Assembly: GCA_963855995.1 (NCBI GenBank)
Contig: OY979724.1
Location: 4,726,558-4,790,557, forward strand
Source of the DNA: Muricea muricata
Taxonomy: Eukaryota > Cnidaria > Anthozoa > Malacalcyonacea > Plexauridae
Direction of reading: 5' to 3'
DNA: 64,000 bases
Below are positions 1-64,000 of this stretch, piece by piece. How positions within the stretch are numbered: the stretch's first letter is position 1; every line of letters starts with the position of its first letter. The position numbers and the translations under genes were made by a program. Under the pieces are notes generated by a model, which saw only the letters and a program-made list of their open reading frames with translations, was not told where the DNA came from and did not search any database.

Positions 1-3000
1 GACCGCATGAAAACATGTCTGCTGCTTGACCAAAACTAGTCGGGTCAACACCATACTTCTTGGACTTCAGCACTTCAGGAGCAATCCAACATCTCGTCTC
101 TGCCATCGCACCACATCTTGTGGTACACTCGCTATACATAGCACGACTTACACCAAGGTCGGCAAACTTCAAGCACAATTTTGGATGTACTTTGTAAAGA
201 ATATGTAGAGGCGTTATAACCACTCCTAGGATTTGTTGTTTGTGTAAAAACTGAAGTCCCATAACGACATCTTTACAAAGGCGAGTGGCTTCTGCAGTAT
301 CAATTGTGCTTCCATCAAGAAACTGCTCGAGACTTCCTTCCATCAGCTCCAAACATAAGTACGAAAAATCTTCATCTTCAAAGAAAGATATATAACGAAC
401 AACATGCTCGGAATCAGCAAGAGCAACGAGATTTTCGACTTCTCTCTTGTCTTCTGAGTTTTTTAAACGCAATTTTTTGGCGCGTCTTACAGCGACTTCT
501 CTGCCATTCTCCTTATCAATTCCAGCAAAAACACGCCAAAACGAATCACTTCCTATGTGTTCTCTGTGATACCAAACTTGATTAACAACTTTACATTCCT
601 GCCGCCTAGCAACCTTCGCCAACAGGCCTTTACATCTGTCAGAAACGGACGCCCAAGGTATAACAATGGGAATGGTGTCGATTTCTATTGGTTTCGTCAG
701 AAGATCTCGAAGAGAAGGGCAATCATTTGCGACGTCGAGACAACAAATCCCAGACTGGTCAGGACTGTATATATCCACTCCGTGTAACAATAATTGTTTG
801 GCGATTTTGCAGTAAACGGAATCGTAGGTAATTTGTATTTCATTTGACTTTTGTTCATTTGTCGATTCATCTTTTCTTGCTTTCTTCGTAAGCGGTTGCC
901 CATCATCCTCACCACGCTTGTCGTTAGTGGCTTGAAAAGGCACTGGTTGCTGATCATCAAACATACCAAATTTAACGATGTTTTGACAGCAAAGGCGTAG
1001 GGGTGACTCCAAGGCAAGATGTCTCGTTCCAGCCGACATTAGAATAAGGTCAACCAAAATGGTTTTCCAGTGTGTATGCTTTAATTTGTCCTTACAAATA
1101 GATCTTAAAGTCGAAAGCTTGACGTCCTCTCCAATAGACTCTTCCTTGCAAGCAACTTCAACCAAAGCTCTACTAAGTGGAAAATCTTCTGATTCGATGA
1201 GAACACTCAAAATGGTCTCTTCTTGTTTGTCAGCTACCCATGGATCAAGTTTCTTTTGGATAGCACATTTCCAAAACGATTCAGGTTCTTCTGTAACATC
1301 AGGGTATAAACGTCCTGCTTTCTTTGACGCGTACTTTTTCTTAGCTGCGGCAAGGAGCGGCGAATGACCAAAAGAATTCTGATCGCTTGGGTTTGCACCA
1401 GCATCTAATAACAACTTCACTGCTGTCCACGTTCTGCACTCGTGCAAAGGAGTTTCGTCATTAACATTGCGAGCATTGACGTGCACTCCACATTTCAGCA
1501 GATGGTCCAAAATTCTTTCCATAATGCTCTCGAACGTAAAGTCCTCCGTTCCAAATGCCGTGTAATCTTGAGGTGTTTTTAGTGCAATTGACGCCCAAAG
1601 GTGTAGTGGTGAGTTTAACAAAGTGTTCGTATGGTTCACAGCATTTCGAACAGCCTTTTCGTGAGGCCGGAGTAACTCCAAAACATTCACCAATGCCTGT
1701 ACAACTGCTTTTCTCTGGGCTTCTTCACTTAGCTCGAGACCTTCCTGGATACGTGAAATGATCCGATAAAAAATGAACTCGCTGTTTAGAATAGCGTTTC
1801 TGCTGCTCAACAAAAATCTACAGACTTCAAACAATCCTCTGATTGAAGACTGCCAACTATTGTTTTCAGTTGCTACTTTCCACGTATTAGATGATAAGGA
1901 AAAGAGCAAAGGTGACTGATCCTGGTGATTTTTTGTATGGAACATCGTCCCAAATTTCTTGAGTTTTTTACAAATATCCATGACGTCGTCTTGTGCTACA
2001 TCATAAAGTGGCAGAAGGGTGGCATAATGAAAAGCTGTATTCCCATCTGAATCAGTAGTTTGGGGATCGGCGCCCAAGTTGATGAGCAAGGATAAAATAC
2101 GCGGTACATCCATCACGTTTTTACCCCTTATCACGAGCACGACTTCATCAATGTCTCCAACGTTATGAGATTTCTGAATTACATATTGCTGTCGAGCAAA
2201 GGCCAAAGCCTCTAAAACATTTGTTTTGTTAAAAATAGCGTATGGCTTTATCAAATGAGGAAATATTCTGACAGATAACAGAGGAGCCTGACAATAGAGT
2301 ATGTTCAATACGGCATGAGTCACGGCGTTTGGTTGTTCTTCTTTTAAGTGAGAGTTAAACAACTCTTTTTCTGCAACATTCCGGGAAATAAACTTTTCGG
2401 CAAAGAAAGTAAAGATGCTAGTATTGCAGTTATCTTTCAGTTCAAGGTTTGCTCCTTTCTCAATAAGATACCGAGCTTTTGTTGTATCATCATCCTCAAG
2501 GGTATAGAATAAGGGGGTTCTACCATAGTGATCTCTTGCATCTATCACTACTTCAACCACTTTCATTAAGGTATCTAAAAAATTGTCATCGCCATAGAAT
2601 ACAACCGTCTTGCCTTGTTCATCTGTTATTTCGAGGTCTAGGCCTGCGTTATACAACGGCTTAACCACATCTTTATGTTCATTTTTTGCAGCATAGAACA
2701 AAAGACCTTTCGCATCATCGATTTCATGCAACTTAAATTCAGCACCACATCCAATTAACTTACAAAGCGCATCCATACTGTGATTACGCTGAGCATAAAA
2801 CACGGCAGTTTTGCCTTCATCATCAGCTATGTTGAGGTCAAAACCCTTATTATGTAATTTATCTACTGTTCCGTAATAATCATATTCAGCAGCGTGGAAC
2901 AAGACAGCTTTTGCATCAATTTCATCCAGCTTAAATTCAGCATCACATTCAATCAACTTACAAAGTGCATCCATACTGTGGTTTCCGATGGCATAAAACA

Positions 3001-3172
3001 AGGCAGTTTTGCCTTCATCATCAGTTATGTTGAGGTCAAGACCTGCATCAAACAATCGCTTCACTACAAGTGGAAGATTATTTCTCGCACCATGGAACAA
3101 AACAGGTTTTGCGTCTATTCCATCCAAGTTAAATTCAGCGCCCCCATTAATTAGCCTACACAGTTCAGCCAT
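1..3172 (-). CDS. Ankyrin/kinase/KEN (RNase L-like) gene, left copy, 3' end cut by window
   Basis: The frame stays open from an ATG at 3172-3170 to the window edge, about 1057 codons. An in-frame TAG lies four codons upstream, which supports this start. The protein opens with ankyrin repeats carrying a GKT loop (DDEGKTALFYA, ADDEGKTAVFYA, DEQGKTVVFYG), continues through a degenerate ankyrin region and a basic LTKKARKDE stretch, and enters a kinase-like domain. The P-loop reads GSDSFWRVF, the usual VAVK lysine is arginine (VAVRR), and the HRD region is lost, so this is a pseudokinase. The end of the kinase and the KEN domain lie outside the window; they are inferred from the copy at 60393-64000, which matches with a constant offset of 61069 and no net indel. 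Family knowledge: in RNase L the ankyrins sense a nucleotide second messenger and the KEN domain cuts RNA. Function here is inferred. Confidence 0.8.
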   Translation of the reverse strand, partial: MAELCRLINGGAEFNLDGIDAKPVLFHGARNNLPLVVKRLFDAGLDLNITDDEGKTALFYAIGNHSMDALCKLIECDAEFKLDEIDAKAVLFHAAEYDYYGTVDKLHNKGFDLNIADDEGKTAVFYAQRNHSMDALCKLIGCGAEFKLHEIDDAKGLLFYAAKNEHKDVVKPLYNAGLDLEITDEQGKTVVFYGDDNFLDTLMKVVEVVIDARDHYGRTPLFYTLEDDDTTKARYLIEKGANLELKDNCNTSIFTFFAEKFISRNVAEKELFNSHLKEEQPNAVTHAVLNILYCQAPLLSVRIFPHLIKPYAIFNKTNVLEALAFARQQYVIQKSHNVGDIDEVVLVIRGKNVMDVPRILSLLINLGADPQTTDSDGNTAFHYATLLPLYDVAQDDVMDICKKLKKFGTMFHTKNHQDQSPLLFSLSSNTWKVATENNSWQSSIRGLFEVCRFLLSSRNAILNSEFIFYRIISRIQEGLELSEEAQRKAVVQALVNVLELLRPHEKAVRNAVNHTNTLLNSPLHLWASIALKTPQDYTAFGTEDFTFESIMERILDHLLKCGVHVNARNVNDETPLHECRTWTAVKLLLDAGANPSDQNSFGHSPLLAAAKKKYASKKAGRLYPDVTEEPESFWKCAIQKKLDPWVADKQEETILSVLIESEDFPLSRALVEVACKEESIGEDVKLSTLRSICKDKLKHTHWKTILVDLILMSAGTRHLALESPLRLCCQNIVKFGMFDDQQPVPFQATNDKRGEDDGQPLTKKARKDESTNEQKSNEIQITYDSVYCKIAKQLLLHGVDIYSPDQSGICCLDVANDCPSLRDLLTKPIEIDTIPIVIPWASVSDRCKGLLAKVARRQECKVVNQVWYHREHIGSDSFWRVFAGIDKENGREVAVRRAKKLRLKNSEDKREVENLVALADSEHVVRYISFFEDEDFSYLCLELMEGSLEQFLDGSTIDTAEATRLCKDVVMGLQFLHKQQILGVVITPLHILYKVHPKLCLKFADLGVSRAMYSECTTRCGAMAETRCWIAPEVLKSKKYGVDPTSFGQAADMFSCG

Positions 3173-6646: not shown

Positions 6647-30980
<24,334 letters not shown>

Positions 30981-50135: not shown

Positions 50136-53100
50136 TCAGTATTCTTTGTCCATGGCACTTTTTACTTCTTCTGCCTCGTCTAATTTATGTTTGATAACAT
50201 ACTTGTACACCTCCATGACAAGATCGGGAAAGTTTTCGAAAAACACATAATCTTTGAAGAGCAGCTTATCTATTTCCACACATTCGCCAAGAGAAATTTG
50301 ATTCGAATGTGCGTACACATTTCGTATTAAACGTATCAAGTCCACGACTGATCTGACACGATAATTTCTGAATGCTGACATCTCCGTGCGTAACTCGTTC
50401 ATGTGTCTATATTCTCTGTTGTTCCATCTGCCTCGTTCCATGCTCTTCCTTAATGCAGCCTCGATATTAGGGTCATGCGCTTTACTGAATTTTTTATGAT
50501 CACTAACAGCTTTGAGGAAGTTCACCTTCCTTTTATTCGACCAGAATAAAGGATGCTCTAATGCTTCTGCTGCGCTTGGCCGATCCTTTTCGTTGCTTTC
50601 AAGCATTCTTTTTACCAGGTGAGTGGCTTCAGAACAAAGAGACTCATCCCATCCTTCCATTTTACCATTCTTTACGTTGTCCTCCACTGTTTCTTGCAAA
50701 ATTTGCAGTGTAGGACTAAATGGGTGTTTCTTTCCTGAAAGAATGTAATGAACAAGCAGTCCACACGAAAACACGTCTGATTCTGTCACATAATGATTCT
50801 TGCAAACACTGTCCGGCTTGGGTTTGAACACTTCAGGAGCCATCCAGCATCTGGTACCATCATAGATCGTACTAAACGCTGTATCATCAATAGCACGACT
50901 CAGACCAAAGTCGGCAATCTTCAAGCACAATTTTGGATGTATTTTGTAGAGAATATTTTGAGGTTTCAGATCGCGATGCACGATTTTTCGTTCGTGCAAA
51001 AACTGGAGTCCCATGACGACGTTATTACAAAGGTAAGTGATTTCTGCGGTATCAATTGTGTTTTCATCGAAAAACTCCTCGAGATTTCCCTCCATCAGCT
51101 CCAAAACTATGTAGGAAAAATCTTCATCTTCAAAGAAAGATATATAACGAACAACATGCTCGGAATCAGCGAGAGCGACAAGATTTTCGATTTCTCTCCT
51201 GTCTTCTGGTCTTCTAATTAAACGCAATTTTACGACACGTTTTACAGCAACTTCTCTGCCATCCTCCTTATTAATTCCTGCAAAAACATCGCCAAACGAA
51301 CCGCTTCCTATGTGTTCTTTGTGATACCAAATTGGATTAACAATTTTACATTCCTGCCGTCTAGCGACCTTCGCCAACAAGCCTTCATATCGCTCAGAAT
51401 TCGACGCCCAGGGAATACGCATAGGAATGGTGTTGATTTCTATTGGTTTCGTTAGAAGATCTCGAAGAGAGGGGCAATCATTTGCAACCTCAAGACAATA
51501 TGTCCCAGACTGGTCAGGACTGTATATATCCACCCCGTGTGACAATAATTGTTTGGCGATTTTGCAGTAAACGGAATCGTAGGTAACTTGTTTCTCGTTT
51601 GACTTTTGTTCTTTTGTCGATTCATCTTTTCTTGCTTTCTTCGCAGGTGGTTGCCCATCATCCTCACTAGGCTTGTCGTTAGTGGCTTGAAAAGGCCCTG
51701 GTTGCTGATGATCAAACATACCAAATTTAACGATGTTTTGACAGCAAAGGCGTAGAGGTGACTCCACGGCAAGGTGTCTCGTTCCAGCTGAATTTAGAAT
51801 GATGTCAACCAGAATGGTTTTCCAGTGTGTATGCTTTGATTTGTCCTTACAAATGACCCTTAAAATCGAAACCTTGACGTCATCTCCAACAGACTCTTCC
51901 TTGCAAGCAACTTCAACCAAAGCTTTAATAAGTGGAAAATCCTCTGATTCAATGAGAACACTCAAAATGGTCTCTTTTTGTTTGTCAGCTACCCAAGGAT
52001 CAAGTTTCTTTTCGATAGCACATTTCCAAAACGATTCAGGTCTTTCTGTAACATCAGGATATAAATGTCCTGTTTTCTTTGATGCGCATTTCTTCTTAGC
52101 TGCGGCAAGGAGCGGTGAATGACCCGACAAATTCTGGTCGTTTGGGTTTGCACCAGCATCCAGTAATAACGTCACTGCAGTCCACGTTCTACACATATGC
52201 AAAGGAGTTTCTTCTTTTTCATTGCGAACATTGAGTTTTGCTCCGCATTTCAGGAGATGGTCAAAAATTCTTTTCATAATGCTGTCGAACTTGAAGTCTT
52301 CCGTTCCAAACCTTGCGTAATCTTGTGATATTTCTAGTGAAATTGATGCCCATTGGTGTAGTGGTGAGTTTAAAAAGCTGTCCGGGTGATTCACAGTTTC
52401 ACGAACAGCCTTTTCGTTGGGCTGAAGTAATTCCAAAATATCCACCAATGTCTGCACAACAGCCTTTCTCTGGACTTCTGCATTCAATTCAAGACCTTGT
52501 TGGATAAGTGAAATGATGCGATGAAAAATGAACTCACCGTTCGGAATAACGTTTCTGCTGCTCAGCAAAAATCTACAGACTTCGACCAATCCTTTGATTG
52601 GCGACTGCCAACTTTTGTTTTCAGTTGCTGACAAGCAAAAGAGCAAAGGTGACTGACCTTGGTGATTTTTTGCATGGAACATCGTCCCACATTTCTTGAG
52701 TTTCTTACAAATATCCATGACGACTTCTTGCGTTACACCATAAAGTGGCAGAAGAGTGACATAATGAAAAGCTGTATTTCCAGCCGAATCAGAAGTTTGG
52801 GGATCGGCGCCCAACTTGATGAGCAAGGATAAAATACGTGGTACATCCATCACGTTTTCACCCCTGAGCAAGGATAAAATACGTGGTTCATCCTTCACGT
52901 TTTCACCCCTCATCATGCGCACGACTTCATCAATGTCTGCAACGTTATGAGATTTCTGAATTACATATTGCTGTCGAGCAAAGTCCAAAGCCTCTAAAAC
53001 ATTTGTTTTGTTAAAAATCGCGTATGGCTTTATCAAATGAGGAAATATTCTGACAGATAACAGAGGAGCCTGACAATAGAGTAGGTTAAATACGGCATGA

Positions 53101-54536
53101 GTAACGGCGTTTGGTTGTTTTTTTGTTAAGTCAGAGGTAGACAACTTTTTTTCTGCAACATTCCGGGAAATAAACTTTTCGACAAAGAAAGTAAAGATGC
53201 TAGTATTGCAGTTATCTTTCAGTTGAAGGTTTGCTCCTTTCTCAATAAGATACCCAGCTTTTGTTGTATCATCATTCTCAAGGGCATAGGATAAGGGGGT
53301 TCTACCATAGTGATCTCTTGCATCTATCACAACTTCAACCACTTGCATCAAGGTATCTAAAAAATTGTCATCGCCATAGAATACGACCGTCTTGCCATGC
53401 TCATCTGTTATTTCGAGGTCTAGGCCTGCGTTATACAACGGCTTAACTACATCTTTATGTTTATTGTTTGCAGCATAGAACAAAAGACCTTTTGCATCAT
53501 CGATTTCATGCAACTTAAATTCAGCACCACATCCAATTAACTTACAAAGCGCATCCATACTGTGATCCGCATAAAACATGGCAGTTTTGCCTTCATCATC
53601 AGCTATGTTGAGGTCAAAATCCTTTTTATGTAATTTATCTACTGTTCCGGAATAATCATATTTAGCAGCGTAGAACAAGACAGCTTTTGCATCAATTTCA
53701 TCCAGCTTAAATTCAGCACCACTTGCAATCAACGTACAAAGTGTATCCATACTGCTGTAACAGTTAGCATAAAACACGGCAGTTTTGCCCTTATCATCAG
53801 TTATGTTGAAGTCAAAGTGCTTATCATTTAATTTTTCCACTGTCATGGAATAGTCTACTTTAGCAGCGTAGAACAAAACAGACTTTGCATCAATCTCATC
53901 CAAATTAAATTCAGCATCACAACCAATCAACGCACAAAGTGCATCCATATTGTTGTAATGGTTAGCATAAAACACGGCAGTTTTGCCCTCATCATCAGTT
54001 ATGTCGAGGTCAAAGTTCTTTTCATCTAATCTATAGACTGTTAGGGGACAGTGTTTTTTAGCAGCGTGGAACAAAACAGACTTTGCGTCAATTTCATCCA
54101 ACTTGAACTTGGCACCACGTTCAATCAACGCACAAAGTGCATCCATACTGTTGTTACGGTTAGCATGAAACACGGCAGTTTTGCCCTCATCATCAGTTAT
54201 GTTGAGGTTAAAGTTCTTATAATTTAATTCATCCACTATCAAGAAAGAGTCATATTGAGCAGCGTGGAACAAAACAGACTTTGCGTCAATTTCATCCAAC
54301 TTAAACTCGGCACCACATTCAATCAACGCACAAAGTGCATCCATACTGTTGTTGCAGTTAGCATGAAACACGGCAGTTTTGCCTTCATCATCAGTTATGT
54401 TAAGGTCAAGAACTGCATCAGACAATCCCTTCACTATAAGTGGCAAGTTATTTTTCGCAGCATGAAACAAAGCAGATTTTTGGTCTCTTTCACCCAAGTC
54501 AAACTCATCGCCATTTAACCTACGCACTTCATCCAT
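50136..54536 (-). CDS. Ankyrin/kinase/KEN endoribonuclease, RNase L-like, complete
   Basis: Single uninterrupted coding exon of 1466 codons from the ATG at 54536-54534; 11 further codons upstream are open only from a TTG, and the left copy also starts at this Met. Residues 1-450 are ankyrin repeats in a 66-residue two-repeat period, with GKT loops near residues 51, 117, 183, 249, 316 and 380. More degenerate ankyrins run to about 1040, interrupted by a PPAKKARKDE basic cluster. The kinase domain (about 1070-1330) has GSGSFGDVF, VAVKR, HRDLKPQN and DFG, so it looks active. The C-terminal 140 residues match a KEN ribonuclease domain: HPLFW, then VVDLIRLIRNVYAH with D1399, R1405, N1406 and H1410, then FPDLVMEVYK. 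The D-6-R-5-H spacing equals that of human RNase L (D661, R667, H672). IRE1 shares kinase-KEN but not ankyrins. Predicted role: ligand-triggered RNA cleavage, plausibly antiviral; the ligand is unknown. Confidence 0.88.
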   Translation of the reverse strand: MDEVRRLNGDEFDLGERDQKSALFHAAKNNLPLIVKGLSDAVLDLNITDDEGKTAVFHANCNNSMDALCALIECGAEFKLDEIDAKSVLFHAAQYDSFLIVDELNYKNFNLNITDDEGKTAVFHANRNNSMDALCALIERGAKFKLDEIDAKSVLFHAAKKHCPLTVYRLDEKNFDLDITDDEGKTAVFYANHYNNMDALCALIGCDAEFNLDEIDAKSVLFYAAKVDYSMTVEKLNDKHFDFNITDDKGKTAVFYANCYSSMDTLCTLIASGAEFKLDEIDAKAVLFYAAKYDYSGTVDKLHKKDFDLNIADDEGKTAMFYADHSMDALCKLIGCGAEFKLHEIDDAKGLLFYAANNKHKDVVKPLYNAGLDLEITDEHGKTVVFYGDDNFLDTLMQVVEVVIDARDHYGRTPLSYALENDDTTKAGYLIEKGANLQLKDNCNTSIFTFFVEKFISRNVAEKKLSTSDLTKKQPNAVTHAVFNLLYCQAPLLSVRIFPHLIKPYAIFNKTNVLEALDFARQQYVIQKSHNVADIDEVVRMMRGENVKDEPRILSLLRGENVMDVPRILSLLIKLGADPQTSDSAGNTAFHYVTLLPLYGVTQEVVMDICKKLKKCGTMFHAKNHQGQSPLLFCLSATENKSWQSPIKGLVEVCRFLLSSRNVIPNGEFIFHRIISLIQQGLELNAEVQRKAVVQTLVDILELLQPNEKAVRETVNHPDSFLNSPLHQWASISLEISQDYARFGTEDFKFDSIMKRIFDHLLKCGAKLNVRNEKEETPLHMCRTWTAVTLLLDAGANPNDQNLSGHSPLLAAAKKKCASKKTGHLYPDVTERPESFWKCAIEKKLDPWVADKQKETILSVLIESEDFPLIKALVEVACKEESVGDDVKVSILRVICKDKSKHTHWKTILVDIILNSAGTRHLAVESPLRLCCQNIVKFGMFDHQQPGPFQATNDKPSEDDGQPPAKKARKDESTKEQKSNEKQVTYDSVYCKIAKQLLSHGVDIYSPDQSGTYCLEVANDCPSLRDLLTKPIEINTIPMRIPWASNSERYEGLLAKVARRQECKIVNPIWYHKEHIGSGSFGDVFAGINKEDGREVAVKRVVKLRLIRRPEDRREIENLVALADSEHVVRYISFFEDEDFSYIVLELMEGNLEEFFDENTIDTAEITYLCNNVVMGLQFLHERKIVHRDLKPQNILYKIHPKLCLKIADFGLSRAIDDTAFSTIYDGTRCWMAPEVFKPKPDSVCKNHYVTESDVFSCGLLVHYILSGKKHPFSPTLQILQETVEDNVKNGKMEGWDESLCSEATHLVKRMLESNEKDRPSAAEALEHPLFWSNKRKVNFLKAVSDHKKFSKAHDPNIEAALRKSMERGRWNNREYRHMNELRTEMSAFRNYRVRSVVDLIRLIRNVYAHSNQISLGECVEIDKLLFKDYVFFENFPDLVMEVYKYVIKHKLDEAEEVKSAMDKEY
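52821..52910 (-). repeat. 45-bp tandem duplication inside the RNase L-like gene
   Basis: Two adjacent 45-bp units (52821-52865 and 52866-52910) encode RGENVMDVPRILSLL and RGENVKDEPRILSLL. The paralog at 60393-64000 has one unit only (RGKNVMDVPRILSLL). It is an in-frame, recent expansion between ankyrin repeats. Confidence 0.9.
53380..54420 (-). repeat. 198-bp tandem coding repeats (66-aa ankyrin pairs with GKT loop)
   Basis: The start of the complete RNase L-like gene is built of units of 198 bp, each encoding one ankyrin repeat with a DDEGKTAVF-type loop and one with a DEIDAKSVLF-type loop. Four intervals are almost exactly 198 bp; the fifth is slightly shorter. The left copy carries fewer units ahead of the shared region. 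The array is suited to copy-number change by unequal crossing-over. Confidence 0.8.
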
Positions 54537-60392: not shown

Positions 60393-63300
60393 TTATCTGA
60401 TACGAATGTTATTCAAAAAACATTTGATATCATCTCTTGTCTTGTCCCAGCCATAAGTGGTTACCGGCTTGTAGACTTCTATCACAAGATCAGGAAAGCA
60501 TTTCAAAAACACAAACTCATTAAACAGCATCTGTTCGATTGGCGTCGGTGTTCCAAAGGTATTGTCTCGATAATGTACGTATGTATTCCGTATGAATCGT
60601 ACCAACTCCACGGCAGACGAGGTTTTATATTTTCTTCGTTTCTTCATCTCACAGTACAACTTATTCATGTCCGTCGAGCTGTTCCAGTCTTTATGTTTGA
60701 CTATAAAGCTGAAACGTTTCTCTAAGTCTTGTTCAACTTGAGTCAAAGAGGAAGGGTGGCGCTTTGAACGAGGACACTCGAATTCTTTCTGATTTCCAAC
60801 GACCTCTAAGAAATCAACCTTTTCTTTATTCGACCAGAATAAAGGATGCTCTAATGCTTTTGCCGCGCTTGGCCGATTATTTTCGTTGCTTTCAAGCATT
60901 TCCTTTACCAGATGGGTGGCTTCAGGAAAAAGAGAGTCATCCCATCCTTCCATTTTACCATTCATTATGTTTGCTTCTGTTTCATGGGAAACTTGCAGTT
61001 CAGTTTTATTCGCACAATTATTGGGATAAAATGGGTGTTTCTGCCCCGAAAGAATGTAATGAAGGAGAAGACCGCATGAAAACATGTCTGCTGCTTGACC
61101 AAAACTAGTCGGGTCAACACCATACTTCTTGGACTTCAGCACTTCAGGAGCAATCCAACATCTCGTATCTGCAATCGCACCACATCTTGTGGTACACTCG
61201 CCATACATAGTACGACTTAAACCAAGGTCGGAAAACTTCAAGCACAATTTTGGATGTACTTTGTAAAGAATATGTAGAGGCGTTATAACCACTCCTAGGA
61301 TTTGTTGTTTGTGTAAAAACTGAAGTCCCATAACGATATCTTTACAAAGGCGAGTGGCTTCTGCAGTATCAATTGTGCTTCCATCAAGAAACTGCTCGAG
61401 ACTTCCTTCCATCAGCTCCAAACATAAGTACGAAAAATCTTCATCTTCAAAGAAAGATATATAACGAACAACATGCTCGGAATCAGCAAGAGCGACGAGA
61501 TTTTCGACTTCTCTCTTGTCTTCTGAGTTTTTTAAACGCAATTTTTTGGCGCGTCTTACAGCGACTTCTCTGCCATCCTCCTTATCAATTCCAGCAAAAA
61601 CACGGCAAAACGAATCACTTCCTATGTGTTCTCTGTGATACCAAACTTGATTAACAACTTTACATTCCTGCCGCCTAGCAACCTTCGCCAACAGGCCTTT
61701 ACATCTGTCAGAAACGGACGCCCAAGGTATAACAATGGGAATAGTGTCGATTTCTATTGGTTTCGTCAGAAGATCTCGAAGAGAAGGGCAATCATTTGCG
61801 ACGTCAAGACAACACATCCCAGACTGGTCAGGACTGTATATATCCACTCCGTGTAACAATAATTGTTTGGCGATTTTGCAGTAAACGGAATCGTAGGTAA
61901 TCTGTATTTCATTTGATTTTCGTTCCTTTGTCGATTCATCTTTTCTTGCTTTCTTCGTAGGTGGTTGCCCATCATTCCCACTAGGCTTGTCGTCAGTGGC
62001 TTGAGAAGGCACTGGTTGCTGATCATCAAACATACCAAATTTAACGATGTTTTGACAGCAAAGGCGTAGAGGTGACTCTAAGGAAAGATGGCTCGTTCCA
62101 GCCGACGTTAGAATAAGGTCAACCAAAATGGTTTTCCAGTGTGTATGCTTTGATTTGTCCTTACAAATTGATCTTAAAATCGAAAGCTTGACGTCCTCTC
62201 CAATGGACTCTTCCTTGCAAGCAAGTTCAACCAAAGCTCTACTAAGTAGAAAATCCTCTGATTCGATGAGAACACTCAAAATGGTCTCTTCTTGTTTGTC
62301 AGCTACCCATGGATCAAGTTTCTTTTGGATGGCACATTTCCAAAACAATTCAGGTTCTTCTGTAACATCAGGATATAAATGTCCTGCTTTCCTTGACGCA
62401 TACTTTTTCTTAGCTGCGGCAAGGAGCGGTGAATGACCCGACGAATTCTGGTCGCTTGGGTTTGCACCAGCATCTAATAACAACTTCACCGCTGTCCACG
62501 TTCTGCACTCGTGCAAAGGAGTTTCGTCATTAACATTGCGAGCATTGATGTGCACTCCACATTTCAGCAGATGGTCCAAAATTCTTTCCATAATGCTCTC
62601 GAACGTAAAGTCCTCCGTTCCAAATGCCGTGTAATCTTGAGGTGTTTTTAGTGCAATTGACGCCCAAAGGTGTAGTGGTGAGTTTAACAAAGTGTCCGTA
62701 TAGTTCACAGCATTTCGAACAGCCTTTTCGTGAGGCTGGAGTAATTCCAAAACACTCACCAATGCCTGTACAACTGCTTTTCTCTGGGCTTTTTCATTTA
62801 GCTCGAGACTTTGCTGGATAAGTAAAATTATCCGATGAAAAATGAACTCGCTCTTTACAATAACTTTTCTGCTGCTCAACAAAAATCTACAGACTTCAAA
62901 CAATCCTCTGATTGACGACTGCCAACTATTGTTTTCAGTCGCCACTTTCCACGTATTTGATGACAAACAAAAGAGCAAAGGTGACTCATCCTGGTGATTT
63001 TTTGCATGGAATATTGTCCCAAATTTCTTGAGTTTCTTACAAATATTCATGACGTCCTCTTGTGCTACACCATAAAGCGGCAGAAGGGTGGCACAATGGA
63101 AAGCTGTATTCCCATCTGAATCAGTAGTTTGGGGATCGGCGCCCAAGTTGATGAGCAAGGATAAAATACGTGGTACATCCATCACGTTTTTACCCCTTAT
63201 CAGGAGCACGACTTCATCAATGTCTCCAACGTTATGAGATTTCTGAATTACATATTGCTGTCGAGCAAAGGCCAAAGCCTCTAAAACATTTGTTTTGTTA

Positions 63301-64000
63301 AAAATCGCGTATGGCTTTATCAAATGAGGAAATATTCTGACAGATAACAGAGGAGCCTGACAATAGAGTATGTTAAATACGGCACGAGTCACGGCGTTTG
63401 GTTGTTCTTCTTTTAAGTGAGAGGTAAACAACTCTTTTTCTGCAACATTCCGGGAAATAAATTTTTCGGCAAAGAAAGTAAAGATGCTAGTATTGCAGTT
63501 ATCTTTCAGTTCAAGGTTTGCTCCTTTCTCAATAAGATACCGAGCTTTTGTTGTATCATCATCCTCAAGGGCATAGAATAAGGGGGTTCTACCATAGTGA
63601 TCTCTTGCATCTATCACAACTTCAACCACTTCCATCAAGGTATCTAAAAAATTGTCATCGCCATAGAATACAACCGTCTTGCCTTGTTCATCTGTTATTT
63701 CGAGGTCTAGGCCTGCGTTATACAACGGCTTAACTACATCTTTATGTTCATTTTTTGCAGCATAGAACAAAAGACCTTTCGCATCATCGATTTCATGCAA
63801 CTTAAATTCAGCACCACATCCAATCAACTTACAAAGCGCATCCATACTGTGATTACGCTCAGCATAAAACACGGCAGTTTTACCTTCATCATCAGCTATG
63901 TTGAGGTCAAAACCCTTATTATGTAATTTATCTACTGTTCCGGAATAATCATATTCAGCAGCGTGGAACAAGACAGCTTTTGCATCAATTTCATCCAGCT
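60393..64000 (-). CDS. Ankyrin/pseudokinase/KEN RNase L-like gene, 5' end cut by window
   Basis: The frame is open from the right window edge to the stop at 60393, over 1190 codons. Domain order is as in the gene at 50136-54536: GKT-bearing ankyrins, degenerate ankyrins, a PPTKKARKDE basic cluster, a kinase-like domain and a KEN domain. The kinase is degenerate throughout: P-loop GSDSFCRVF, VAVRR in place of VAVK, no HRD (GVVITPLHIL instead), and DLG in place of DFG. It is therefore predicted to lack phosphotransfer and to act as a scaffold or nucleotide-sensing pseudokinase, like vertebrate RNase L. The KEN domain keeps R and H with the same spacing (SAVELVRFIRNTYVHYRD), but the catalytic Asp is Glu; FPDLVIEVYK follows. 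The ribonuclease may be weakened. The domain is clear; activity cannot be judged from sequence. Confidence 0.85.
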   Translation of the reverse strand, partial: LDEIDAKAVLFHAAEYDYSGTVDKLHNKGFDLNIADDEGKTAVFYAERNHSMDALCKLIGCGAEFKLHEIDDAKGLLFYAAKNEHKDVVKPLYNAGLDLEITDEQGKTVVFYGDDNFLDTLMEVVEVVIDARDHYGRTPLFYALEDDDTTKARYLIEKGANLELKDNCNTSIFTFFAEKFISRNVAEKELFTSHLKEEQPNAVTRAVFNILYCQAPLLSVRIFPHLIKPYAIFNKTNVLEALAFARQQYVIQKSHNVGDIDEVVLLIRGKNVMDVPRILSLLINLGADPQTTDSDGNTAFHCATLLPLYGVAQEDVMNICKKLKKFGTIFHAKNHQDESPLLFCLSSNTWKVATENNSWQSSIRGLFEVCRFLLSSRKVIVKSEFIFHRIILLIQQSLELNEKAQRKAVVQALVSVLELLQPHEKAVRNAVNYTDTLLNSPLHLWASIALKTPQDYTAFGTEDFTFESIMERILDHLLKCGVHINARNVNDETPLHECRTWTAVKLLLDAGANPSDQNSSGHSPLLAAAKKKYASRKAGHLYPDVTEEPELFWKCAIQKKLDPWVADKQEETILSVLIESEDFLLSRALVELACKEESIGEDVKLSILRSICKDKSKHTHWKTILVDLILTSAGTSHLSLESPLRLCCQNIVKFGMFDDQQPVPSQATDDKPSGNDGQPPTKKARKDESTKERKSNEIQITYDSVYCKIAKQLLLHGVDIYSPDQSGMCCLDVANDCPSLRDLLTKPIEIDTIPIVIPWASVSDRCKGLLAKVARRQECKVVNQVWYHREHIGSDSFCRVFAGIDKEDGREVAVRRAKKLRLKNSEDKREVENLVALADSEHVVRYISFFEDEDFSYLCLELMEGSLEQFLDGSTIDTAEATRLCKDIVMGLQFLHKQQILGVVITPLHILYKVHPKLCLKFSDLGLSRTMYGECTTRCGAIADTRCWIAPEVLKSKKYGVDPTSFGQAADMFSCGLLLHYILSGQKHPFYPNNCANKTELQVSHETEANIMNGKMEGWDDSLFPEATHLVKEMLESNENNRPSAAKALEHPLFWSNKEKVDFLEVVGNQKEFECPRSKRHPSSLTQVEQDLEKRFSFIVKHKDWNSSTDMNKLYCEMKKRRKYKTSSAVELVRFIRNTYVHYRDNTFGTPTPIEQMLFNEFVFLKCFPDLVIEVYKPVTTYGWDKTRDDIKCFLNNIRIR

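Follow-up and report, generated by a model that had tools for sequence, protein, structure and literature searches.

Ankyrin-kinase-KEN genes in the window

The stretch of DNA analysed here (the window, 64,000 nt) carries three related genes on its minus strand, two of which run over its edges. Their features are collected in Table 1. The gene that lies entirely within the window, p1, encodes an ankyrin-repeat region, a protein kinase domain and a KEN ribonuclease domain. The initial annotation had assigned to it the domain order of RNase L and about twice the length of that protein; Pfam matches within the one open frame confirm the order (Ank_2 E-value = 7e-42), and the length is as described. 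The nearest upstream in-frame stop codon begins 63 nt before the ATG. Ankyrin-like similarity continues beyond the ATG towards this stop codon, thus the true start codon is not certain and 5′ exons are possible. The highest hydropathy over 19 residues in p1 is 1.26.

Table 1. Coordinates of the genes and features in the window
Feature	Position	Strand	Evidence or remark
Ankyrin-kinase-KEN gene p1	50136..54536	-	Uninterrupted ORF, 1466 aa from first ATG
p1 ankyrin-repeat sensor region, residues 1 to ~802	52131..54536	-	Pfam Ank_2, Ank_4, Ank_5, Ank, Ank_3
p1 tandem array of 198-bp (66-aa, two-ankyrin) units	53470..54409	-	TRF; 4.8 copies, 84% matches
p1 protein kinase domain, residues 1073-1331	50544..51320	-	Pfam Pkinase, E-value = 3.5e-56; K, HRD, DFG intact
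p1 putative recombination breakpoint against paralogue L024 (approximate)	50516..50555	-	DNA identity falls from 93-96% to ~43-80%
p1 KEN ribonuclease domain, residues 1338-1451	50184..50525	-	Pfam PF06479 (Ribonuc_2-5A), E-value = 2.4e-13; helical model; fold matches IRE1, RNase L
p1 D1399	50340-50342	-	Alignments
p1 catalytic motif R1405-N1406-xxx-H1410	50307..50324	-	Alignments
Second copy p2, ankyrin-kinase-KEN	60393..64000	-	Frame open at window edge
Third copy, ankyrin and kinase parts	1..3172	-	KEN end lies left of window edge

The p1 KEN domain scores 50.8 bits against PF06479, for which the curated cut-off is 23.3, and is placed by this score in the KEN family. Amino acids D1399, R1405, N1406 and H1410 align with D661, R667, N668 and H672 of human RNase L. 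The spacing that had been noticed from the sequence is thus correct, as is the description of the kinase as intact-looking, its lysine, HRD and DFG all being present.

An AlphaFold2 model of p1 residues 700–1466, made with an alignment of 24 sequences from the same genome, has a mean pLDDT of 72.8 and a pTM of 0.57 (moderate confidence). The KEN region is all-helical in this model; the C-terminal region therefore both matches KEN by Pfam and has the predicted helical fold. A Foldseek search of the PDB with the model ranks an IRE1 kinase-KEN structure first (E-value = 1.2e-20, TM by target 0.75), and the second hit has a TM by target of 0.78. Complete human RNase L (4oav_D) is found at rank 14 with an E-value of 4.5e-18 over 799 columns. 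The domains match over these columns, but in this model the placement of the ankyrin region relative to the kinase differs, as the superposition on 4oav_D gives TM values of 0.38/0.42 and an rmsd of 17.1; the predicted domain placement is therefore tentative.

The second copy, p2, has a whole frame of 1285 codons when the flank outside the window (L070) is included. Its kinase is degraded, with the VAIK lysine changed to arginine, HRD lost and DFG changed to DLG, and the KEN R, N and H are retained. The third copy is the locus C9:4727159 in the list of p1-type ankyrin loci. Its ankyrin part matches p1 at 79% and p2 at 93%, and its kinase matches them at 64% and 95%, respectively.

A multigene family with apparently reassorted KEN domains

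The genome consists of 453 Mb in 74 contigs. The mitochondrial contig C74 (19,292 bp) carries cox1 and also matches MutS (2.3e-32) in a frame of 525 codons; a frame beside cox1 on the opposite strand, recognised by eye, is taken by us to be cox2. A mitochondrial MutS and such a gene arrangement are hallmarks of octocorals, thus the source of the DNA is an octocoral, in keeping with the invertebrate origin initially proposed.

PF06479 matches the genome at no fewer than 59 places, 56 of which were analysed, the partial matches C12:9618948, C12:9669747 and C3:56395238 being left out. Residue counts are based on 55 KENs and exclude the part-exon of the canonical IRE1, an intron-bearing gene of its own at C9:1869374. 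Twenty loci with the p1 ankyrin region are spread over 4.327–5.150 Mb of contig C9, every one on the minus strand. Nineteen of them show a KEN match and the twentieth is the copy at the left edge of the window, where the KEN end is outside the window. Ankyrin region, kinase and KEN are found in a single open frame of 1043–2479 codons at 18 of the 19 loci; the copy at C9:4524023 is broken across several frames. At C9:4839625 (L023) there are extra ankyrins directly upstream in a different frame, which suggests a frameshift; most of the other one-frame C9 copies were read only a limited distance upstream in this comparison. A second, shorter form is situated on contig C7 at six loci, all of them in one frame (968–1013 codons). 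In total, at least 25 loci display an ankyrin region together with a KEN, 24 of the 25 in one frame of 968–2479 codons, and the expanded family proposed in the initial annotation is thus present. A scan of viral contigs gives a single match, to the kinase only (L074).

The highest 19-residue hydropathy in four C9 proteins is 1.26–1.39, compared with 2.50 in L034, a gene that joins leucine-rich repeats (LRRs) to a kinase-KEN. The single C7 protein scanned has a maximum of 1.93, and because of this more hydrophobic stretch solubility is less sure for the C7 form. The model of a C7 protein is also weaker than that of p1, with a mean pLDDT of 66.4 (low confidence).

The nuclease residues are highly conserved. 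The position of RNase L W632 is W in 52 of the 55 genome KENs, that of R667 is R in 54, and those of N668 and H672 are N and H in all 55. The D661 position varies (D in 21, E in 25, Q in 5, G in 2 and S in 2). All 25 ankyrin-type KENs retain R, N and H, the kinase-degraded copies included; thus decay of the kinase has not been accompanied by loss of the nuclease site. Kinase residues were scored at the 31 of 56 loci that have the kinase in the same frame. The lysine and both aspartates are retained in 22 of the 31, seven show a K to R change (three of these seven also being without the HRD aspartate) and two are without both aspartates. In a cluster of eight C9 copies, defined by their kinases, the VAIK lysine is lost from all seven kinases assessed.

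Six near-identical 1285-codon copies out of this eight-locus cluster were used for dN/dS, p2 without its first 84 codons. As the ratio of means over 15 pairs, with a pairwise dS of 0.014–0.075, dN/dS is 0.34 and 0.38 for the two ankyrin parts, 0.47 for the linker, 0.55 for the kinase and 0.50 for the KEN. The six copies are young and constrained, and with values of 0.34–0.55 in all domains positive selection among them is not indicated. The number of 66-aa (198-bp) ankyrin units differs between paralogues; nine proteins, two of them truncated or shifted on the upstream side, carry between 2 and 6 unit anchors. Among 24 distinct units the scaffold positions are invariant and the most variable positions are 14–19, 22–23, 25–26, 46–47, 49, 56 and 59.

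Kinases and KENs of the 19 C9 loci do not cluster alike. The kinases form four clusters (7, 3, 8 and 1 members) and the KENs four as well (1, 15, 2 and 1), with cluster sizes identical at identity thresholds of 70, 75 and 80%, and six kinase/KEN combinations are found. C9:4839625 and C9:5057170 share 88% in the kinase vs 37% in the KEN; the corresponding values for p1 and C9:4326266 are 92% and 37%. A single KEN type (87.5–90% among representatives) follows three kinase types (59–67% among the same representatives). In both mismatched pairs the DNA identity drops from 90–96% to ~43–80% at roughly −410 to −380 nt relative to the end of the coding frame, directly behind the motif HP[LF]FWSN (HPLFWSN in p1). 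Between p1 and L023 the KEN is at 70–96% and ~280 nt of 3′ flank at 83–100% per 30-nt step. From these sequence comparisons, nuclease ends appear to have been exchanged between C9 paralogues through recombination at the kinase/KEN junction. Among clustered paralogues, a swapping of nuclease cassettes is what a diversifying defence family would be expected to show; in a stress enzyme it would be out of the ordinary.

Relation to IRE1 and RNase L

In pairwise sequence comparison p1 is nearest to IRE1; its kinase-KEN half gives a phmmer E-value of 1.1e-39 over 374 query residues. A kinase+KEN tree was made from 27 rows, consisting of 23 representative genome loci, human and pig RNase L, and human and coral IRE1. 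IRE1 is set apart at 100/100, and a three-gene group, one member of which carries LRRs, splits off at 100/100. The C7 and C9 ankyrin genes form one clade (100/99). RNase L groups with four kinase-KEN genes in which no ankyrins are seen, at 97/91 in a tree where long branches meet according to a warning from the tool; in a reduced set from which four long rows are removed this join is at 92/90. The AU test does not reject a union of RNase L and the ankyrin clade (p-AU = 0.078 with 27 rows, 0.102 with the reduced set), nor, in the reduced set, that of RNase L and IRE1 (p-AU = 0.105).

In a tree of the KEN alone, with 60 rows, RNase L branches first among the KENs that belong neither to the IRE1 nor to the LRR group, as sister to the rest of them. 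The whole set of RNase L, ankyrin and other KENs is apart from IRE1 with 99/92, and the three-gene LRR branch has 99/97. RNase L is thus not placed by the trees next to the ankyrin clade, although such a placement is compatible with the AU tests.

In the DNA of the four genes on the RNase L side, namely L016, L017 and L018 (9.9 kb for each) and L052 (2 kb), an ankyrin-repeat HMM and BLAST find no ankyrins. The HMM was home-made, BLAST was run with the p1 and p2 ankyrins, and frames of 25 codons or longer were considered; one 37-codon frame in L016 gave an E-value of 0.39. As the control for this comparison is uneven, with C9 copies at 1e-42 or better and C7 copies at 5.5e-4, 0.015 and 0.4, weak or distant ankyrins may be present in the RNase L-side genes. 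A mixed KEN profile of nine ankyrin-type rows and the four rows with no ankyrins seen ranks RNase L first (6.4e-16) and was set aside. With a profile of the same nine ankyrin rows alone, the top rank goes to yeast IRE1 (1.1e-8), ahead of RNase L (3.5e-6), thus the pull towards RNase L comes from the four added rows.

These sequence relations suggest that the ankyrin-kinase-KEN order of RNase L and that of the coral family were probably built separately on related KEN kinases. Other KEN kinases in the same octocoral look nearest to RNase L, which bears on the origin of the vertebrate enzyme.

RNase L and the coral family are alike in the ankyrin-(pseudo)kinase-KEN order and in the KEN positions R667/N668/H672 and W632, with D661 also shared by p1. 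The kinase of RNase L is itself degraded (HQD, DFD), like that of the p2-type coral copies. The coral proteins differ, however, in being up to twice as long or more, in carrying an array with a variable number of 66-aa repeat units, in that many of their kinases are intact, and in forming a tandem multigene family. With IRE1 the likeness is in the kinase-KEN half, but ankyrins are found instead of the luminal sensor and membrane segment. In the accessible portion of PMC3710099, KEN expansions are described from Oikopleura and monocots. These are likewise independent KEN amplifications, but there the KENs have been amplified apart from the kinase, whereas the coral family retains both ankyrin and kinase. 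A row of the KEN table in that paper mentions ankyrin fusions and names no cnidarian.

Other literature concerns the pathway rather than this architecture. In the part of PMC6307210 available to us, 12 non-vertebrate animals are surveyed, the anthozoans Acropora, Nematostella and Orbicella among them. OAS is recorded in these animals and RNase L in none, and the conclusion drawn there is that they lack the OAS/RNase L pathway. OAS1 and RNase L are called absent in Aplysia in an excerpt of PMC9334734. An excerpt of PMC12922763 cites Chu et al. 2023 for the view that the coupling of RNase L with OAS arose in jawed vertebrates; related invertebrate genes may already be reported in Chu et al. 2023 (PNAS, PMC10400998). 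Titles and abstracts among the matches listed describe no cnidarian ankyrin-kinase-KEN genes, and the portions available of PMC8260672, PMC2852836 and PMC11797021 contain nothing on such genes.

Possible function

With moderate confidence, p1 is read here as an endoribonuclease of the same kind as IRE1 and RNase L, probably soluble, which would be gated by its ankyrins and activated by dimerisation and is probably immune. The architecture, predicted fold, catalytic residues, multiplicity, constraint, variable ankyrin number and KEN reassortment are observed. From these we infer RNase activity, activation as a dimer, the class of ligand and the immune role. An immune role for the ankyrin-kinase-KEN family as a whole has about an even chance of being correct, and would be the likeliest explanation for a family that is tandem, mosaic and sensor-variable.

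The biochemistry of IRE1 and RNase L is the basis for the gating, dimerisation, nucleotide switching and cleavage proposed. The ligand recognised by the ankyrin array would probably be a protein or a modified protein and not 2-5A, and when this ligand is lacking the array would keep the enzyme inactive. Clustering driven by the ligand would bring the kinase-KEN halves into a back-to-back dimer. A bound nucleotide could stabilise this dimer, as could autophosphorylation in copies with an intact kinase, p1 being one of them. The paired KEN domains would then cut RNA through R1405, N1406 and H1410 in a metal-independent manner.

The family may alternatively consist of IRE1-like stress effectors, which would respond to proteotoxic or other stress by regulated mRNA decay and have no immune role. 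The proximity to IRE1, both pairwise and by Foldseek, is in line with this, and as the canonical IRE1 is also present in the genome, the family could share its output. However, there is no luminal part, the C9 proteins scanned display no membrane-like segment, and the large, mosaic, copy-variable cluster appears unlike a housekeeping stress sensor. Such a role is rather unlikely, although it survives better than the other alternatives.

It is quite improbable that the coral gene is a true RNase L orthologue in which 2-5A made by OAS binds the ankyrins and activates the KEN. The domain order is shared, the genome has OAS-like genes, RNase L is found with the ankyrin and other KENs in the KEN-only tree, and the constrained kinase+KEN trees are not rejected. 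However, in the best kinase+KEN trees the partners of RNase L are genes in which no ankyrins are seen, the ankyrin-only KEN profile favours IRE1, and the 2-5A-contact residues are not matched in the ankyrin sequences. The residues of RNase L that contact 2-5A are taken by us to be W60, N65, K89, F126, E131, Y135 and R155. Eight alignments over 11 proteins, each covering 4–7 of the seven positions, match none of them, compared with six of seven in pig RNase L as a control. The W/K/F spacing signature is likewise not seen in any of the 12 ankyrin proteins scanned. The nucleotide (2-5A) trigger put forward in the initial annotation is thus not supported, and for the coral family it is highly doubtful.

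The same annotation had called for a search of the genome for OAS/cGAS-like synthases, and matches to such families are found. Three OAS1_C-bearing genes are situated on contig C11 (six OAS1_C matches), and there are 29 Mab-21_C (Mab-21/cGLR) matches and seven STING-domain matches. For the OAS catalytic exon, PF01909 gives no match near the three OAS1_C genes, and visual inspection of 2.1 kb upstream of one of these genes shows no DxD motif, which also speaks against an RNase L orthologue. The OAS, STING and Mab-21 content fits an animal rich in nucleotide-based immunity and shows no link to the ankyrin-KEN family.

Least probable of all is a recently duplicated, largely inert family kept by segmental duplication, with some copies kinase-dead or decaying: the lysine loss in the eight-copy C9 cluster, the split C9:4524023 and the probably frameshifted ankyrins of C9:4839625 are of this kind, but the intact frames at 24 of 25 loci, the dN/dS of 0.34–0.55 and the R, N and H kept in every ankyrin-type KEN argue against it.

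With an OAS-bearing octocoral that has 25 or more RNase L-shaped loci, the origin of RNase L can be put to a direct test, with regard to shared ancestry or convergence and to 2-5A or another ligand. Returning to the reading of p1 as an ankyrin-gated endoribonuclease, it is suggested tentatively, at somewhat less than an even chance, that octocorals have an undescribed cytosolic repertoire of RNA-decay immune receptors convergent with RNase L, with ankyrin sensors, kinase/pseudokinase switches and exchangeable KEN cassettes in a cluster of ~0.8 Mb. On this view, RNase L would be a single case among several in which IRE1 paralogues from an old metazoan set were independently taken up for immunity, and the same kinase-KEN output module would also have been joined to an LRR receptor-like protein. 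The latter is the L034 gene of the same genome (C5:9193800), which has the kinase-KEN module in common with the ankyrin family but a different sensor. It differs in its LRRs, in a strongly hydrophobic segment (2.50) and in belonging to the separate three-gene branch. In L034 the LRRs, the hydrophobic segment and the kinase-KEN are all carried in one 767-codon frame.

KEN exchange in the C9 cluster

The kinase/KEN junction is a site of KEN (Ribonuc_2-5A ribonuclease domain) cassette exchange among the ankyrin-kinase-KEN paralogues of contig C9 (C9:4.33-5.15 Mb), namely those of L023, L024 and L037, read outside the window, and p1 (window 50136-54536). The 3′ flank travels together with the swapped cassette. 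L023 (C9:4839300-4847300) also displays a 1209-codon ankyrin-kinase-KEN frame, the start of which is overlapped by a 355-codon ankyrin frame in a different reading frame. This overlap is a frameshift or assembly error.

Kinase-KEN genes elsewhere in the genome

An additional expansion of kinase-KEN genes is found at C12:7.1-9.9 Mb, C1:40.7 Mb, C13, C15 and C9:8.5-9.3 Mb. These genes show no ankyrins in the sequence covered, which is either the KEN exon or a stretch that only in a minority of cases takes in the N-terminal part. In some of them the position of human RNase L D661 is occupied by E or Q, with the catalytic R, N and H retained.

On contig C5, a single 767-codon frame (L034:7251-9551, C5:9193800) contains LRRs, a strongly hydrophobic segment, a kinase with a DFD motif, and KEN; it is a receptor-like LRR-kinase-KEN gene. 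Genes at C10:2609186 and C7:2558696 cluster with it.

An NLR-like frame, L021:2-1789 (C9:8945001-8946788), shows LRR_6 and a weak NLRC4_HD2, and a kinase-KEN gene follows ~6 kb downstream. In L017 (C1:116874300-116884200), exon-sized frames with putative repeated RRM-type domains, judged by eye only, are situated 5′ of a kinase-KEN gene.

Other features

Further features of the window
Feature	Window positions	Details
GIY-YIG catalytic domain match	9908-10648	6.7e-7, in 246-aa frame
27-bp repeats	20592-20789 and 24948-25015	unit translates as Gly-X-Y collagen-like triplets
12-bp-unit array	26526-27482	75 copies, 957 bp, strong GC skew

The nuclear genome contains a near-complete cox1 copy of mitochondrial type, interrupted by a single stop (C1:38414782-38416095) and adjoined by a frame that by eye is cox2-like.
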